Below, in pieces: positions 107-19,523 of a DNA stretch of 23,676 nt (the first letter of the stretch is position 1; each line of letters starts with the position of its first letter). The position numbers and the translations under genes are program-made. Where the stretch lies: positions 1-23,676 of IMG/VR virus record IMGVR_UViG_3300049489_000413; one strand, given 5' to 3'. The stretch comes from a virus. A model generated the notes under the pieces. The model had not been told where the DNA came from, ran no database searches, and saw only the letters and a list, made by a program, of their open reading frames with translations.

Positions 107-348
107 AGGACCCCCGTCGCGACCAAGACCAACATGGCGGACACAAAAATAGCGTACAGGAACGTGAGGAGGCTGTACCGCCGTTCGCGGTCGAGGCGCC
201 ACTTCAATACCGCCACCTCATGCGCGAGTCCGATCTGCCAGCGCGGGTCGGTCGGCGCGATTGTGGCGTCACGCGTCAGCGCGTACCCGCCCAGATCAGG
301 ACCGCTCGGCCCATCGTCGTTGTGCGTTCCATTATCATTTGCCGTCAT
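103..348 (-). CDS. Small tail-anchored membrane protein, 81 aa
   Basis: The ATG at 348 overlaps the previous stop (ATGA) and has an AGAAGG ribosome binding site 5 bases upstream, so the start is well supported. The first half is polar and rich in Asp/Gly/Pro. Residues about 45-57 (VAVLKWRLDRERR) are helical and basic, and residues about 58-80 (YSLLTFLYAIFVSAMLVLVATGV) form one membrane helix at the extreme C-terminus. The basic flank before the helix predicts the N-terminus in the cytoplasm. It sits between an HTH regulator and a lipoprotein. A holin-like or host-envelope role is possible, but no family is recognised. An inner spanin normally has its membrane helix at the N-terminus, which does not fit. 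Confidence 0.7.
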   Translation of the reverse strand: MTANDNGTHNDDGPSGPDLGGYALTRDATIAPTDPRWQIGLAHEVAVLKWRLDRERRYSLLTFLYAIFVSAMLVLVATGVL

Positions 349-608
349 CGTAACCTTCTCGCTTTCGGCTCCAGTTTTAGGAGTATGCGGTCCAGCAGTT
401 GGTGAACACGCTCGTGGCTGATCCCAAGCGCGTGCCCGATTTCGATATAGCCGTGCGGACCGTCGTCGGCCACGTCAAGCACGCATGACTCAGATGCGCG
501 CGGGAAGTCCTGAAAGGTGTGGTATTGGCAGTTCAGGCACGGGCAGGGTCGCGGAAGATCCCGACATCCCGCCCGTGTCGGTGGTGGTTTAGGTGGGCGA
601 TTCCTCAT
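345..608 (-). CDS. Sigma-70 region 4-like HTH regulator, 87 aa
   Basis: Residues about 54-78 (YIEIGHALGISHERVHQLLD) match the region 4 helix-turn-helix of sigma-70 factors (pattern L-E-I-G-x-x-L-G-V-S-R-E-R-V-R-Q-I), which reads -35 elements or similar sites. The N-terminal part holds a cysteine cluster (C15, C22, C24, C27, H30), perhaps zinc-binding. Small proteins with this CPCxxC...ESCxLDVAD...HTH layout occur in phages and GC-rich bacteria as stand-alone DNA-binding regulators (family knowledge). I chose the ATG at 608. A longer reading from GTG at 635 would run through the promoter and has no SD. With the ATG start the mRNA leader is only a few bases and lacks an SD. The gene lies directly behind a palindromic promoter, so autoregulation is plausible. 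Confidence 0.75.
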   Translation of the reverse strand: MRNRPPKPPPTRAGCRDLPRPCPCLNCQYHTFQDFPRASESCVLDVADDGPHGYIEIGHALGISHERVHQLLDRILLKLEPKARRLR

Positions 609-613
609 CGCTG

Positions 614-651
614 TGTATAGTCTAGTATACAGCACGCGTGCTGGTACGCAA
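614..651 (-). promoter_or_regulatory. Promoter with two palindromes upstream of the HTH gene
   Basis: On the minus strand TTGCGT (646-651) and TATACT (624-629) are 16 bases apart. Transcription would start near 617, only about 9 bases before the ATG at 608, with no SD, so translation would be nearly leaderless. The spacer contains a perfect 14-bp palindrome, CAGCACGCGTGCTG (630-643). Overlapping the -10 is a second near-palindrome, TGTATAGTCTAGTATACA on the + strand (614-631), which recurs at 9017-9034. A repressor bound to either site would block RNA polymerase. Confidence 0.6.
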
Positions 652-658
652 GGGGAAA

Positions 659-5664: not shown

Positions 5665-5878
5665 AGTGCTGAGCCTTTCGGGCACGGGCGAGTTGCCGAG
5701 CGTGCGGTGAACCTGCCGGTACCCACCTACTAAACCACTCCCGCTTGACGCTGTCGTACACGTGCGCGCGCACGAACCCGCGCTCACGCAGGAGTGTCGG
5801 CATCATGGGCAATCGCAACAGGAACGCGACTGCGCCGCGATACCGACGCGGAACCGACCTATGAGACGGGGCCTTCAT
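5657..5878 (-). CDS. Small basic protein after RecA, 73 aa
   Basis: The ATG at 5878 overlaps the recA stop (ATGA), which strongly supports the start. The protein is very basic (MKAPSHRSVPRRYRGAVAFLLRL..., many Arg, few acidic residues) and ends RQLARARKAQHCG. A short hydrophobic patch (AVAFLLRLPMMP) is present but too short for a confident membrane helix. No family is recognised. High charge and co-translation with RecA make a nucleic-acid-binding accessory role possible. Confidence 0.65.
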   Translation of the reverse strand: MKAPSHRSVPRRYRGAVAFLLRLPMMPTLLRERGFVRAHVYDSVKREWFSRWVPAGSPHARQLARARKAQHCG

Positions 5879-7731
5879 AGTGCGATCTCCTGCGCGATCT
5901 TGGCGAACAAGTCCGCGTTGTTCTCCAGCGCGGCCCTGGCTTGCGCGAGCCCGACGCCAATACGCTCATCTTTGTACGTGTACGTGTTTCCGGTTTTCTT
6001 GATCACTTCAGCCTCAATCGCAACGGTCAGGGTTTCCGACACGGTGTCGATACCTTTCCCCCAGATGATGCCGAACTCGGCCTCCTTGAAGGGCGGTGCC
6101 ATCTTGTTCTTCACCACCTTCACGCGGGTCTGATTCCCGATCGAACCCGTGGCGTCCTCGATCTTGCCGATGCGCCGAATATCGAGGCGACATGACGCGA
6201 AGAACTTGAGTGCGTTCCCGCCTGGGGTCGTTTCCGGGTTCCCAAATTGGATCCCTATCTTCATTCTGATCTGGTTCAGGAACAGGAGCGCGGTGCCGGT
6301 CCGGTTCGCAATAGCGGTCAGCTTCCTGCACGCCTGGCTCATCAGGCGAGCATGTTTGCCCATGTGCGAATCCCCCATGTCGCCGTCGAGTTCATCCTGC
6401 GGCACCAAAGCCGCAACGGAGTCGATCACGATCAAGTGGAGTTGTCCGGTTGAGCACAGCACCTCAATCTGGTCTAGTGCTTGCTCGGCCGAATCGGGTT
6501 GACTAAAAATCAACTCCGGCATGGGCACCCCAAGCGCGGCGGCGTAGCCAGGATCGAACGCGTGTTCGGCGTCGATGAAGGCGGCCTTGCCGCCGTTGCG
6601 GTACACGTTCGCGAGCGCGTGAATCGCCAGTGTGGTCTTTCCGCTGTTGTGTGTCACGAAATTCGCCGCAATATAGTTATTGAACGGCGATAGCATCTTG
6701 ACATCGAACACCTCGCGGACACCGACAGGTTCGATACTGCGAATGATGTCCTCGGTGGCGACAAACCTTAGGTTATTGTGTCGGTCGAGCGCGTGCATGC
6801 GTCCGTGATCTTCCGCAGACAGTACCACAAGGTTTTCCAACCTGTCGTCACCCTCGTCCTCGTTGAGGTGATGCACGTGGTCATCACGCGATAGGGTGCG
6901 AATATGCTCAGGCAATGCGTCCGGTGAATTTAGAAGTTCAACGTACTGTTGCAACGACACACCGTTCATGTGTGCCTCCACGACAGCACGCGCACGCAGG
7001 AGCCTGTGATAAACGTATTCGCGCCGTTCACCAGTTGTGCGATTCGATACAGCAGAAACGACCTTTGCGCCCGCTATAGGGTGCTGCCGCACGTACAGAT
7101 AACCACGGCGTGACGCAGCGCGCACTCCAGGTTCCGCAGTAAATGGCGTACTTGCATGTACCAGCACGACATCGCCCGGCGACAAGTCGCAGAGTTTGAC
7201 GTAGGTCGACCCGGTAAAAAATCGGTGATCCGCCGTGGCGATAATTGAATGCCCGCCTGCGGTGATCAATTTCCAGCATGGGCGAGAACCGACCCGTACA
7301 ACGTCCACAATCTCGTTATGGAATATGCGGTCATCCTCATTAATGGATGGAGCGGTAAATACCGTGTTGTCCGGTAAGCGCCGATCTTTCCCACGACTAG
7401 TGCCAGTAGCCGGCTGACGATTGAAGCGCTCCCATAGCCGACGAAGTGTGCCACCCTTGTGATTTACACGACGACCATCGGGGCGTCGCATAGCATATTG
7501 GATGTACGTGTCGCCGTCTAGGCAGGATTCCGGTCCGAAAACCTCGACGATGCGCCCGCGTGGGTATCCGCCGCATCCAATCGCGCGGTCGAGCAGGAGT
7601 GACCCGGTCGGGATCGCGCGCACGGGCGCGGTTGTCCTGGTCCCGAAGACGCCACACCCCTGCTTGCCCAGCAGGGTCAGGGCTTCCGCGAGCGTGGGGG
7701 CGGACTTGTCCTTCTCTTTATCTTTTGCCAT
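5875..7731 (-). CDS. recA: RecA recombinase precursor with intein, 618 aa
   Basis: RecA forms ATP-dependent filaments on single-stranded DNA and drives strand exchange. The precursor holds an intein at residues 70-362; after splicing the host protein is 325 aa, close to normal RecA length. The N-extein ends EVFGPES and the C-extein begins SGKTTLAIHA, so the Walker A loop GPESSGKT is formed only after splicing. Further RecA marks are DAEHAFDPGYAAALGV, Walker B LIVIDSVAALVP, the MAW-like LMSQACRKLT, LFLNQIRMKIG and the L2 loop GNPETTPGGNALKFFAS. The ATG at 7731 has no SD and follows a tRNA-like structured RNA directly. RecA lies between the SSB and the nuclease pair, an arrangement typical of a recombination cassette. 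Confidence 0.96.
   Translation of the reverse strand: MAKDKEKDKSAPTLAEALTLLGKQGCGVFGTRTTAPVRAIPTGSLLLDRAIGCGGYPRGRIVEVFGPESCLDGDTYIQYAMRRPDGRRVNHKGGTLRRLWERFNRQPATGTSRGKDRRLPDNTVFTAPSINEDDRIFHNEIVDVVRVGSRPCWKLITAGGHSIIATADHRFFTGSTYVKLCDLSPGDVVLVHASTPFTAEPGVRAASRRGYLYVRQHPIAGAKVVSAVSNRTTGERREYVYHRLLRARAVVEAHMNGVSLQQYVELLNSPDALPEHIRTLSRDDHVHHLNEDEGDDRLENLVVLSAEDHGRMHALDRHNNLRFVATEDIIRSIEPVGVREVFDVKMLSPFNNYIAANFVTHNSGKTTLAIHALANVYRNGGKAAFIDAEHAFDPGYAAALGVPMPELIFSQPDSAEQALDQIEVLCSTGQLHLIVIDSVAALVPQDELDGDMGDSHMGKHARLMSQACRKLTAIANRTGTALLFLNQIRMKIGIQFGNPETTPGGNALKFFASCRLDIRRIGKIEDATGSIGNQTRVKVVKNKMAPPFKEAEFGIIWGKGIDTVSETLTVAIEAEVIKKTGNTYTYKDERIGVGLAQARAALENNADLFAKIAQEIAL
6646..7524 (-). mobile_element. 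Intein with HNH homing endonuclease in the RecA P-loop
   Basis: The 293-residue intein starts with the catalytic Cys1 (CLDGDTYI), has block B GGHSIIATADH (intein residues 90-100), and ends with block F-G YIAANFVTHN (284-293), followed by Ser+1 of the C-extein. All residues for self-splicing are present. An HNH domain (intein residues 216-244: HVHHLNEDEG, then RLENLVVLSAEDHGRMH) makes it a full mobile element able to cut intein-less recA alleles. The DNA is visibly richer in A/T than the flanks, a sign of separate ancestry. The insertion lies between GPES and SGKT, the most conserved point of the ATP site. Confidence 0.93.
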
Positions 7732-7790
7732 TCGGGCCGCGGGCGGGTCTCGAACCCGCCACGTCGCCGTGCGTCCAGCACCGCGGCCGA
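7732..7790 (-). ncRNA. Compact tRNA-like three-helix RNA before recA
   Basis: Reading the minus strand, GGCCGCGG (7781-7788) pairs perfectly with CCGCGGCC (7735-7742) as an acceptor-like stem, extendable by TCGG/CCGA with one bulge. Directly inside its 3' arm is a textbook T-arm, GCGGG-TTCGAGA-CCCGC (7743-7759). Next to it CACG-GCGA-CGTG (7760-7771) forms a hairpin with a GNRA-type loop. Only nine unpaired bases remain, so there is no room for both a D-arm and an anticodon arm. The structure ends at the recA start codon, which has no SD. It could be a degenerate tRNA, a processing signal or a translational control element. Confidence 0.5.
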
Positions 7791-7804
7791 CCTCGTCAGA
7801 GGTC
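7789..7804 (-). other. Hairpin across the SSB stop codon
   Basis: GACCTC and GAGGTC flank a 4-base loop that includes the TGA stop. There is no T-run after it, so it is not a standard terminator. It lies just upstream of the tRNA-like fold and may help shape or process the SSB-recA intercistronic RNA. Confidence 0.4.
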
Positions 7805-8593
7805 TTCGTCCGAGATCACGACCGGCGCCTGCGCGGCGGTCGGGCGCGAGAACCCGACGCGGGGAGCAGCCTGCACGGCCGCACCGCCGCTCAGGCGCGC
7901 ACCACCATGCACGGTCGTGTGCGGGTTGCGCATGCGCTCGCAAAGGTCCTCGAACCACTCCGGGATCGACATATCGATCAGGGACGACTTGTCGGGCTGA
8001 TTCTCGATCAGCATTTGGATCTCTTCGTCGGTCTCGGCGAGCCTGCTGGACTGCCGGACCGCCGCAGCGCTGTACCGGGTCGCCATGCCGGACCCGGTCT
8101 TGACGACCTCGATGTCGAACCCGTTGTGCGGGTCCGTGAAGTTGCCACCGCTGCTCTTGGACGCGCGGATTTGCTGAAGGTCCTTCAGGATCTGCCGACC
8201 GATGTCGGCCGTTTGGGCGCCGGCGTCCTCCTCGCCGCGCACGAGGACGTTCCAGAGCGCCTTCGCGGTGACCTTGTATTCCTCCGCAGCCCTGATAGCG
8301 GCCGGCTGGCGCGAGGCCAGCAGGAGCGAGATCAAGTCGCAGACCTGGCAAGGCTGCCCAAACGAGCGCGCGCACGCGATCGCGGTCGCCTTCTCCTCTC
8401 CGGGCTTCTTGACGAAGTGCTGCCCGTAGGCCAACACGAGCTTGTCTTGGCTTCCTCGAGCGAGCGGGATCGCGCGCACGAGCGTGGAGCCCTCCGGGAA
8501 CCGGAATACCCCGCCCGCGCTGATCTTCGACATGCCCCGAAGCGCGTCCGCGAAGTCGTCAGCGCTGGAGTCTTGATAAACCTGAATTGCCAT
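7796..8593 (-). CDS. gp32-like single-stranded DNA-binding protein, 265 aa
   Basis: This protein is predicted to coat single-stranded DNA during replication and recombination. It has the layout of T4 gp32-type SSBs: an N-terminal arm, the motif GGVFRFPEGSTLVRAIPL, and a zinc-binding HC3 set H59, C74, C82, C85 (IACARSFGQPCQVC) inside the OB-fold. An acidic C-terminal tip, VISDEDL, resembles the protein-docking tails of SSBs. The region before the tail is Ala/Pro/Gly-rich and probably flexible. ATG 8593 is the first good start; its SD is weak. It lies immediately upstream of recA, which it would assist or compete with on ssDNA. Weak overall similarity is usual for this family, so the call rests on the zinc motif, the tail and the context. 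Confidence 0.82.
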   Translation of the reverse strand: MAIQVYQDSSADDFADALRGMSKISAGGVFRFPEGSTLVRAIPLARGSQDKLVLAYGQHFVKKPGEEKATAIACARSFGQPCQVCDLISLLLASRQPAAIRAAEEYKVTAKALWNVLVRGEEDAGAQTADIGRQILKDLQQIRASKSSGGNFTDPHNGFDIEVVKTGSGMATRYSAAAVRQSSRLAETDEEIQMLIENQPDKSSLIDMSIPEWFEDLCERMRNPHTTVHGGARLSGGAAVQAAPRVGFSRPTAAQAPVVISDEDL

Positions 8594-8609: not shown

Positions 8610-9011
8610 TCAGCGAATTGTGATAGGGGATTCGGCGCGGTAGTTCGCGCCCAAGCTAATAAGCATATCGCGTTTACTCAGGAGCGCCAACACGATCGCC
8701 TTCGCGTGTCCGAGTTCGTGCTCGGCCGCGATCTCGGCCGTGTTGGCCTCGATGACGTCAGGGTCGGTCGCGACGTCGTGTGCGGTCGCGCCATCGGACT
8801 TGTGTCCCGCGCGTCGGAACTTGAACGTTTCCGACTCGACGCGCTTCCGCTCGAGTTTGGCGAGTTCGACCTTCGCCTGAAGGTCCGCCACGGTCGCGCT
8901 CCACCACGCGACCGTGGCGGGCAGGTTCGTGAACTCATCATTCAGGTTCGACGGGTCGATCTCGACCACGCCCTGTAGGGCACCAAGTAGTTCGGTCACG
9001 CTTTTGTGCAT
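8610..9011 (-). CDS. Helical protein upstream of SSB, 133 aa
   Basis: ATG 9011 is chosen because the upstream frame runs through the 106-aa gene and the promoter. The protein is mainly helical, with the core DPSNLNDEFTNLPATVAWW followed by a long helix QAKVELAKLERKRVESETF. Proteins with this D-L-N-x-E-F ... P...A-x-W pattern and a following coiled coil are common beside SSB or recombinase genes in phages (impression from memory, not searched). Translation would be leaderless or nearly so: the -10 element ends six bases before the ATG and no SD is present. It is the first gene of the SSB-RecA operon. A recombination accessory role is inferred from position. Confidence 0.75.
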   Translation of the reverse strand: MHKSVTELLGALQGVVEIDPSNLNDEFTNLPATVAWWSATVADLQAKVELAKLERKRVESETFKFRRAGHKSDGATAHDVATDPDVIEANTAEIAAEHELGHAKAIVLALLSKRDMLISLGANYRAESPITIR

Positions 9012-9016
9012 AACCG

Positions 9017-9045
9017 TGTATAGTGTACCATACAGGGCCAGTCCA
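9017..9045 (-). promoter_or_regulatory. Palindromic, apparently leaderless promoter of the SSB-recA operon
   Basis: TGGACT (9040-9045) and TATACA (9017-9022) are separated by exactly 17 bases on the minus strand. The expected start of transcription (about 9010) coincides with the ATG at 9011. The + strand sequence TGTATAGTGTACCATACA (9017-9034) is a near-palindrome identical at 15 of 18 positions to the one at 614-631, and both lie exactly five bases from their ATG. This suggests a shared operator controlling both genes. Confidence 0.6.
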
Positions 9046-9055
9046 GCGAAATCGC

Positions 9056-12008: not shown

Positions 12009-12105
12009 CTCAGACTCACCTAAAGGGCCGTCTCTCCGGCTGTCACGCCTTGGATTCGCTGACGCTGCGGTCCGCGTTTGGATACCAGGTAGGTCAACTC
12101 GACGG

Positions 12106-12174
12106 TGCCCCCACCGGGACTTGAACCCGGAAACCCGCATACAGGGTGCGGTGTCCGACCTGGACCGTGAGGGC
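12106..12174 (-). tRNA. tRNA-like gene, candidate anticodon CTG, atypical loop
   Basis: On the minus strand a full cloverleaf folds in 69 bases. Acceptor GCCCTCA (12168-12174) pairs with TGGGGGC (one G-U pair), and A73 is at 12106. The D-arm is GTCC-AGGTC-GGAC, the anticodon stem is CCGCA/TGCGG with loop CCCTGTA (12140-12146), the variable loop has 4 bases, and the T-arm is CCGGG-TTCAAGT-CCCGG. Positions 34-36 read CTG, which would decode the Gln codon CAG. However, position 33 is C instead of the near-universal U and position 37 is a pyrimidine. Positions 8-9 are CG and the D-loop is short. CCA is not encoded. It may be a divergent phage tRNA, a pseudogene or a tRNA mimic. Confidence 0.65.
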
Positions 12175-12206: not shown

Positions 12207-13286
12207 TCACGCCACGACGGGCGCGAGCTTCATCAGCACGGTCGCGACCCGGTTCGACAGGTCGCCCCCGAGCGCGTTCAGGACCGGAACATGCGGCTGC
12301 CACGCCGCCAGGACCCGCACGGCCTCGACCGGATCCCCACAGTCGATCAGCCCCAGCGAGATTGCGGTTCTGATCAGCGGCACGAACGCGTTGGCGAGCA
12401 TGATGTCGTCAGGGATCTCCGGAATGGACGCATCCTCGACGTCGTCGATCCCGAGCGTGTTCGCCTGCGCGATGCTGGCAGCGGCCTCACTGGCGGGCAG
12501 GGCGTCCTGCTCGACCTTCGTGACCGGAAGGTCCTGAACCTCCGGCGGGAAGTCGTCATCGTTCGGATCGGGCAAGCCCAACAGGGCCGCCACGCATTGC
12601 TCCTGTGTCTGCATGGTCACGACCTTGGCGGTCTCGACGTGCTTGACCGTCCAGGTCTGATCCGGGTTCTGACGCCCACGGAACGCGGCACCGTGTGCAT
12701 TCCAGGTCAGGACAGATCCGGGTGCGACCGACGTGGCCGGCGCGGTCGCGGTCTTGACCGGCGGCGCGATGGGGGAGGACTTCGGCGCCGCTGGCACAGG
12801 CGACGCACCACTCTTCTTCGCCACTTCGGCCTTGATGGCCGCGATCTCGTCCTTACTCCACCGACCGCGCTTCTGCGGAGGGCGAATACGCGCAATCTCG
12901 TCGGGCGTCAACTTCGCCAGCAGGGACGCGATGTCGTCGGAGTCGCCCGGCTCTGCCGCGCTTGCGGGCGGGGTGGGGGGCTCCGGCGCGGCAGGCGCGG
13001 GCTTTTGCGCCGCCTCGACTGGTGCTGGTTCGACGTGCTGCACGACTGCGGGCGCGGGCTTTTGCGCCGGAGGCACCTTCGTGGCCAAGACGGCGTCCAC
13101 ACGCGCGACCTCGGTACTGGACGAGGGAAGCACCGGGAGACGCACCGGTGCGGCCGAAGACTCCACGTTCGCGACCTTGCCCAGAAACTCCAGCGCGGCG
13201 CCGACGCTGCTGAACTGAATCGACACATCCAGGACGGTCGTGCCGTCCTCCGAAACCGACATACCTGCTTGCCTGATCGTCATCAT
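12207..13286 (-). CDS. Pro/Ala-rich multidomain protein of unknown function, 359 aa
   Basis: The start is ATG 13286 or the next ATG (13283), both behind a strong GAGGAG; the second has better spacing. The protein has an N-terminal beta-like segment (TTVLDVSIQFSSVGAALEFLGKV), a long low-complexity Pro/Ala linker (about 68-115) with the unit QKPAPA twice, a basic helical patch KRGRWSKDEIAAIKAEV (about 138-154), a second linker, a small central domain (VLTWNAHGAAFRGRQNPDQTWTV), and an acidic C-terminal helical region. No family is recognised. The first half of the basic patch recalls SANT/Myb or recombinase-type helices, but too weakly for a call. It has its own promoter with an operator-like palindrome and stands before the tRNA and polymerase, so it may be a replication organiser. 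Confidence 0.75.
   Translation of the reverse strand: MMTIRQAGMSVSEDGTTVLDVSIQFSSVGAALEFLGKVANVESSAAPVRLPVLPSSSTEVARVDAVLATKVPPAQKPAPAVVQHVEPAPVEAAQKPAPAAPEPPTPPASAAEPGDSDDIASLLAKLTPDEIARIRPPQKRGRWSKDEIAAIKAEVAKKSGASPVPAAPKSSPIAPPVKTATAPATSVAPGSVLTWNAHGAAFRGRQNPDQTWTVKHVETAKVVTMQTQEQCVAALLGLPDPNDDDFPPEVQDLPVTKVEQDALPASEAAASIAQANTLGIDDVEDASIPEIPDDIMLANAFVPLIRTAISLGLIDCGDPVEAVRVLAAWQPHVPVLNALGGDLSNRVATVLMKLAPVVA
12994..13069. repeat. 19-bp direct repeat, two copies 57 bp apart
   Basis: GGCGCGGGCTTTTGCGCCG occurs at 12994-13012 and 13051-13069. On the minus strand both encode AQKPAPA in the linker of the 359-aa protein, and the 57-bp period keeps the frame. It looks like a coding-sequence duplication in a low-complexity linker. 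Confidence 0.8.
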
Positions 13287-13319
13287 TTACTCCTCTACAC
13301 AACCACAACCAACTCGCTA

Positions 13320-13348
13320 TATGTAGCGGACCTAATACGTCCGCGCAA
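13320..13348 (-). promoter_or_regulatory. Promoter with operator-like palindrome in the spacer
   Basis: TTGCGC (13343-13348) and TACATA (13320-13325) lie 17 bases apart on the minus strand. The spacer is the inverted repeat GGAC-N7-GTCC followed by GC, the same arrangement as the spacer of the promoter at 19492-19520. Transcription would start near 13313, giving a leader of about 27 bases that carries the GAGGAG site of the 359-aa gene. The -10 is a poor match, suggesting an activated or phage-modified promoter. Confidence 0.55.
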
Positions 13349-13355
13349 GGGGAAT

Positions 13356-13607
13356 TTACAGGGTCTCGACAATTCCGGGATCTTCAACGCGCTCGAGCGC
13401 GTCTTCGGCCGGCTGAGTGTCTCGCGATCCGTCCGCCGTCATGGCGAGCGTCTTGTTGACGTCGCTCAGGATACCGTCGATGGTCAGGAGCGATGCTGCA
13501 CCGACCAGCAGGAGCAGGGTTGCGGCCTGATCAAACGAGCACCCAAACGCTTTCGCGCCGTTCTCGATGTCGCCCACAACCGAATCAGGAATCTCGACCG
13601 TCACCAT
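13356..13607 (-). CDS. Small ribbon-helix-helix-like protein, 83 aa
   Basis: ATG 13607 has GAGG five bases upstream and overlaps the zinc-ribbon gene by 7 bases; an upstream start at 13682 is unlikely. The N-terminus MVTVEIPDSVVGDIENGAKAF looks like the strand plus first helix of ribbon-helix-helix DNA-binding proteins. It is followed by an unusually hydrophobic helix (AATLLLLVGAASLLTI) and an acidic tail. It could be a dimeric repressor; the promoter and operator of the next gene begin eight bases past its stop. The hydrophobic stretch leaves a membrane-associated alternative open. Confidence 0.6.
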   Translation of the reverse strand: MVTVEIPDSVVGDIENGAKAFGCSFDQAATLLLLVGAASLLTIDGILSDVNKTLAMTADGSRDTQPAEDALERVEDPGIVETL

Positions 13608-13786: not shown

Positions 13787-14459
13787 GGCCGCTCCCTAGC
13801 GCAAGAGGACCGCCCAACAGCGCGCCCGACGCCGGCCCCTGTAGGACCTCCGCGATCGTGGCCTGCCTGCATACCCCGTCCGCTTCGACCAGGCAAGTCT
13901 GCTGCGCCGGACGAAGCACCTGCGACGCGTCGATGTGCCAGCGATTATGCCGACGCCCGACCGATTGCCACAGCGCCAACCCGGAGACGCTCCTGTATGG
14001 TGCCCCGACGTCATGCCAGCCGTAATTGACGGCCGTGTCGCCCGTGATGTTTCGGTCCAGGATCCAGTCCTTCCCGACCGAGCTTGTTGGGCGCCCAGGC
14101 GTGTGCGCCACGCGCGCGTCCACGGCGGCGCTGTAGGCTTTCGGATCCGCCAACGCCGTGATGGTCTTACCCACACGCGTGATCGGCACGAACGCGCTCG
14201 CGCTGGCACGGTGGACGTCGTCCACCATCAGGGACGTCAGGAGCGTCCACCCCTTGTCATCACAAATCCGCTGCGCCGACGTCGCGCTCACGCTAGCGCG
14301 CCATGGCTGATCGGGAGCGTCGGGGCTGTAGATCAGCAGCGCGTCTTGCGCGACGCGCCACCTCACCGTAACGCCGCCATGGGTGCTGACCATGTCGATC
14401 CATGTTGGTTCGACAAATCGCCCCTCCTGCACGGCCTTGAAGGCATCTTCGTACTTCAC
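13764..14459 (-). CDS. Two-domain protein with DUF2829/Tad2-like N-terminus, 231 aa
   Basis: GTG 14459 overlaps the primase stop as GTGA. Residues 1-75 follow the DUF2829 pattern: an opening helix with a conserved Gly and Trp (MKYEDAFKAVQEGRFVEPTW), a middle strand region (ALLIYSPDAPDQPW) and a closing helix ending in D-x-x-W (SAQRICDDKGW). DUF2829 proteins include the Thoeris inhibitor Tad2, which sequesters a signal nucleotide (family knowledge). The C-terminal part (about 115-231) has a second, conserved-looking core: GKDWILDRN, VNYGWHD, GLALWQSVGRRHNRWHIDASQ, suggestive of a His-containing enzyme or tail-associated domain that I do not recognise. The domain call is by eye and needs a profile search. 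Confidence 0.55.
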   Translation of the reverse strand: MKYEDAFKAVQEGRFVEPTWIDMVSTHGGVTVRWRVAQDALLIYSPDAPDQPWRASVSATSAQRICDDKGWTLLTSLMVDDVHRASASAFVPITRVGKTITALADPKAYSAAVDARVAHTPGRPTSSVGKDWILDRNITGDTAVNYGWHDVGAPYRSVSGLALWQSVGRRHNRWHIDASQVLRPAQQTCLVEADGVCRQATIAEVLQGPASGALLGGPLALGSGHVRYRTA

Positions 14460-19467: not shown

Positions 19468-19491
19468 AGGCTTACCTTGGCGGTCCTGCAA

Positions 19492-19520
19492 GGTATAGCG
19501 GACTCGTTATGTCCAGTCAA
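19492..19520 (-). promoter_or_regulatory. Near-consensus sigma70-type promoter with operator-like spacer
   Basis: On the minus strand TTGACT (19515-19520) and TATACC (19492-19497) are separated by exactly 17 bases. The spacer is GGAC-ATAACGA-GTCC-GC, an inverted repeat that matches the spacer of the promoter at 13320-13348 in layout and at 12 of 17 positions. Transcription should begin near 19485 and drive the helicase and replication genes. It sits in the gap between the lysis/tail genes and the replication genes. Confidence 0.75.
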
Positions 19521-19523
19521 GCA

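Follow-up and report, generated by a model that had tools for sequence, protein, structure and literature searches.

Two matching 18-bp near-palindromes as putative repressor operators at predicted near-leaderless promoters of an uncultivated phage

In the PaaR2/YdaS switch of CP-933P, a prophage of E. coli O157:H7, 18-bp palindromes lie over PRM933P and PR933P, and paaR2 is leaderless, as is cI (PMC8630535). The phage locus described here resembles both Lambda OR/PRM-cI and CP-933P in having short palindromic operators over promoters that adjoin a gene with leaderless translation, the operators, promoters and near-leaderless starts all being predicted here. In those two systems the operators form a cluster flanked by divergent genes, and their repressor is known, whereas the phage studied here has two single sites 8.4 kb apart, carries all its genes in one direction and offers only candidates for the regulator. 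The principle, a repressor placed over a promoter with a near-leaderless start, is classical and ordinary for phage gene control. There is also a likeness to the stoperators of cluster A mycobacteriophages, where one repressor (here predicted) serves several sites across the phage genome, although the stoperators are 13-mers without symmetry and occur in far larger numbers, unlike the two symmetric 18-mers, found at gene starts only, that we call element A. The fragment also encodes a small protein that, from its modelled structure, may resemble the ribbon-helix-helix (RHH) repressors of the P22 Arc type; at the sequence level this protein (13356-13607) showed no homology to Arc. The Arc operator lies between the -35 and -10 sequences, and the same placement is predicted for a second operator-like element (element B) in the fragment.

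The window analysed is the entire IMG/VR record IMGVR_UViG_3300049489_000413 (23,676 bases), a genome fragment of an uncultivated phage with a GC content of 64%. All genes in the set picked from the list of open reading frames lie on the minus strand, and the set amounts to a block for the replication and recombination of phage DNA, comprising a RuvC-like resolvase, a dCTP deaminase, an SbcC/SbcD-like pair, RecA with an HNH intein, a gp32-like single-stranded DNA-binding protein, a UvsY-like protein, PolA, a primase, a DnaB-like helicase, a second helicase and a dUTPase, some of these names (among them SbcC/SbcD, primase and dUTPase) being given from reading of the sequence only. The genes are tightly packed, with the listed gaps totalling 568 bases (2.4% of the window), and no classical phage repressor is present in the fragment. 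Just before recA, positions 7732-7795 (minus strand) contain a GC-rich stem that includes a sequence resembling a tRNA T-arm (GGCGGGTTCGAGACCCGCC), for which neither ARAGORN nor Rfam called a tRNA and whose folding is no better than that of shuffles. At 12104-12174 (minus strand), ARAGORN predicted a tRNA-Gln (CTG), without Rfam confirmation. The features discussed below are listed in Table 1.

Table 1. Coordinates of putative operators, predicted promoters and associated genes in the window.
Feature	Position	Strand	Sequence	Remarks
Putative operator A, copy 1	614..631		TGTATAGTCTAGTATACA	7/9 self-complementary pairs; 5 nt before ATG at 608
Putative operator A, copy 2	9017..9034		TGTATAGTGTACCATACA	7/9 self-complementary pairs; 5 nt before ATG at 9011
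Predicted promoter, sigma4-like gene	624..651	minus	TTGCGT-16-TATACT	-10 at 629-624; expected leader ~9 nt
Predicted promoter, uvsY-like gene	9022..9050	minus	TTCGCT-17-TACACT	-10 at 9027-9022; expected leader ~4 nt
sigma4-like gene	345..608	minus		Behind copy 1; 87 aa; HTH at residues 54-79; Cys-rich N-terminus
recA	5875-7731	minus		Interrupted by intein carrying HNH endonuclease domain
ssb	7796-8593			Between uvsY-like gene and recA
uvsY-like gene	8610..9011	minus		Behind copy 2; distant UvsY-like recombination mediator; then ssb, recA
RHH-like protein	13356..13607	minus		83 aa; modelled as ribbon-helix-helix; may regulate A or B
Operator-like element B, copy 1	13328..13342		GGAC-GTATTAG-GTCC	Within TTGCGC-17-TACATA spacer, ahead of gene 12207-13286
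Operator-like element B, copy 2	19500..19514		GGAC-ATAACGA-GTCC	In spacer of TTGACT-17-TATACC, before helicase gene

Both copies of element A sit in intergenic gaps that are promoter-sized, filled by the sites and have a GC content of 52% compared to 64% for the contig. A sequence-only reading of this DNA had described the pair as near-palindromic, agreeing at 15 of 18 positions, overlapping a -10 element and standing at the same distance from an ATG with no Shine-Dalgarno sequence, and these observations hold, with exact coordinates and sequences and with -10-like hexamers predicted at both sites. No Shine-Dalgarno match of at least 3 nt is present at either start, against 18 of the 23 other starts examined where one is found. 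The four half-sites (TGTATACTA, TGTATAGTC, TGTATGGTA and TGTATAGTG) all match the consensus TGTATAGT with at most one mismatch, so that element A, with the full consensus TGTATAGTnnACTATACA, fits a symmetric dimer; an asymmetric block, ACTATACAC, is also the same in both copies and at constant distance from the ATG. No third comparable site is present within the 23.7-kb fragment, and Rfam found no RNA at either copy. A perfect 14-bp palindrome (CAGCACGCGTGCTG, 630-643), which overlaps operator copy 1 by two bases, lies between that copy and the predicted -35.

When the roughly 23,600 minus-strand positions are ranked by promoter-like score, TTGCGT-16-TATACT comes 8th and TTCGCT-17-TACACT 14th. 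Both -10 hexamers fall within the palindromes, yet they are shifted by 5 bp from each other relative to the palindrome, suggesting that promoter geometry may differ between the two sites. The start points, and with them the leaders of 4-9 nt, are predicted by placing the start about 7 nt past the -10. Since element A overlaps the predicted -10 and promoter core, where a bound protein would occlude RNA polymerase, a repressor is likelier than an activator. The earlier proposal of a near-leaderless regulon under one repressor or activator is thus best kept as a two-site regulon with a dimeric regulator, its activator variant being the less likely one.

The same reading had put forward the helix-turn-helix gene behind copy 1 as the regulator of both sites, for which we find a weak case. 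Its product (345-608) just passes the curated score for Pfam Sigma70_r4 (24.5 bits against a cut-off of 24.1) and has weak PDB matches to SigA region 4, but it is too short for region 2 and is therefore not a full sigma factor; the single-sequence model was too poor for use. As sigma-70 region 4 normally reads one -35 element, a TGTATA palindrome is not a site that this sigma4-like protein would obviously recognise. RHH proteins, in contrast, are dimers that bind repeated half-sites, which makes the product of 13356-13607 at least as good a candidate. Its single-sequence model has a pLDDT of 70.8, and the top Foldseek matches are mostly RHH repressors and antitoxins (Arc, CopG, VapB, AmrZ), with probabilities up to 0.99, a best E-value of 0.19 and none below 0.001; no Pfam or PHROG family match was found. 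Candidate regulators of element A are then this RHH-like protein, the product of a gene outside the fragment or a host protein, with the sigma4-like protein itself less likely. Behind copy 2, the uvsY-like protein matches the profiles phrog_1069 (4e-9), phrog_2058 (1e-8) and phrog_231, UvsY-like (0.014), and tblastn gave a match to the 'recombination DNA binding protein' of Lbab1.

Searches of IMG/VR with the sigma4-like protein, the uvsY-like protein or PolA found no close relatives. Four distant syntenic relatives (L019, L073, L095 and L096) were found through RecA, an alignment of SSB and a scan of genome contigs for PolA, and all four have the gene order polA, uvsY-like, ssb, recA, sbcD, followed by sbcC where the contig reaches (the L073 contig ends within sbcD, and the L096 ssb was assigned by position and sequence reading). 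Their uvsY-like proteins share 30-34% identity with the one described here. The palindrome is absent before the uvsY-like gene in all four, the best consensus match anywhere in their loci having 5 mismatches, and Shine-Dalgarno-like sequences precede this gene in L073, L095 and L096. Element A control thus appears not to be conserved as far as these distant relatives, and its absence there does not show that the site is functionless. Absence of the motif elsewhere in the genome and in relatives had been named beforehand as what would refute the regulon; half of this is seen, as the motif is absent from the rest of the fragment and from the position before the uvsY-like gene in relatives, the former covering a fragment only and the latter being distant. 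Across IMG/VR, the operator pattern gave only AT-rich, chance-like matches or unrelated contigs. One unrelated virus contig (L005) carries the perfect consensus twice, at 13853-13870 and 13923-13940, 70 bp apart and ahead of an ORF that may encode an HTH; it has no genes in common with the window, and family searches of its ORF yielded nothing firm.

We consider it probable that element A represents twin repressor operators, each read by one symmetric DNA-binding dimer, at two near-leaderless phage promoters. A single type of dimer would bind both sites through the consensus, host RNA polymerase would start about 4-9 nt before the ATG to give near-leaderless transcripts, and the bound dimer, covering the -10 region and the start point, would keep both the sigma4-like gene and the uvsY-ssb-recA block from being transcribed, so that the two would be switched jointly in the absence of the repressor or upon its release. 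The occurrence of only two copies in the 23.7-kb fragment, the absence of the site before the uvsY-like gene in the four relatives and the 5-bp offset of the -10 hexamers all count against this reading.

That two AT-rich promoter cores look alike by chance is very improbable. The -10 region is AT-rich in any case, and when symmetry is ignored, identity of at least 15/18 at equal start-codon distance is reached in 3 of 400 upstream shuffles, which is weaker evidence; pairs of weak palindromes agreeing at 15/18 are also not rare in the GC-rich coding sequence of the same window. A pair as similar and as symmetric as element A, in contrast, arose in none of 3000 gap shuffles, and the combined score for identity and symmetry was reached in none of 400 upstream shuffles. 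The consensus search has an expectation of 0.00 matches (whole-window shuffles give none), and a symmetric half-site matrix, built from the two element A sites themselves, scores these at 30.4 and 29.7, where 30 shuffles reached at most 13.1 and the next site in the window has 7.4. The significance of element A is based on symmetry, AT content and position jointly, not on identity alone, and the pair is confirmed as real and non-random. A palindrome that is simply coding sequence is extremely improbable: both frames are open upstream and through the palindrome (LYTRLYTAM and LYGTLYTVM), but all three differences within the 18-mer alter amino acids, and the ATG at 9011 agrees with the N-terminus of the homologue in L095, so that copy 2 is non-coding and the coding palindrome was rejected.

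An extended promoter element for a phage-specific RNA polymerase or sigma factor, instead of an operator, would account for the identical block and equal ATG spacing at both sites, and a sigma4-like protein is encoded directly behind copy 1. We regard it as unlikely, since it leaves the symmetry of both copies unexplained, the gap promoters at 13287-13355 and 19468-19523 are without the block and resemble ordinary -35/-10 promoters, and no gene for such a polymerase was seen in the fragment. A T7-like promoter (CACTATA) was considered as well and set aside. Also unlikely, and if anything slightly more so, is binding of both sites by a regulator of the host, such as a repressor of the stress or SOS type, that would tie the phage recombination genes to the state of the host; recombination functions do lie behind site 2 and the fragment is without a classical phage repressor, but a literature search on TGTATA/TATACA operators returned nothing specific, and the element A sequence is not known to match any LexA box.

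Beside the twin operators of element A, the window contains a second operator-like pair. GGAC-N7-GTCC occurs only twice in the window, both times in a gap and followed by GCTA (GGAC-N7-GTCCGCTA), and each copy lies inside a promoter-like sequence, within its 17-bp spacer; 2 of 3000 gap shuffles show a pair of this type. A further shared sequence, CCCCTTGCG, is found only twice in the window (647-655 and 13344-13352, minus strand), once in the gap of the sigma4-like gene and once in that of gene 12207-13286, each time at the predicted -35 and shortly after the upstream stop codon. These elements could be joined in a two-operator programme, in which A would control the sigma4-like factor and the recombination block, B would control the helicase and gene 12207-13286, and the sigma4-like protein, acting at CCCCTTGCG, would redirect host polymerase once A is released; we hold this larger scheme to be very unlikely.

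Our analysis proposes a concrete circuit of gene control in an uncultivated phage group, in which a small sigma4-like regulator and the uvsY-ssb-recA recombination block appear to be coupled through one operator, and two other promoters appear to share a second operator-like element. This coupling and the second pair deserve the most attention. If true, the circuit would reveal the timing of replication genes in a phage of this kind.
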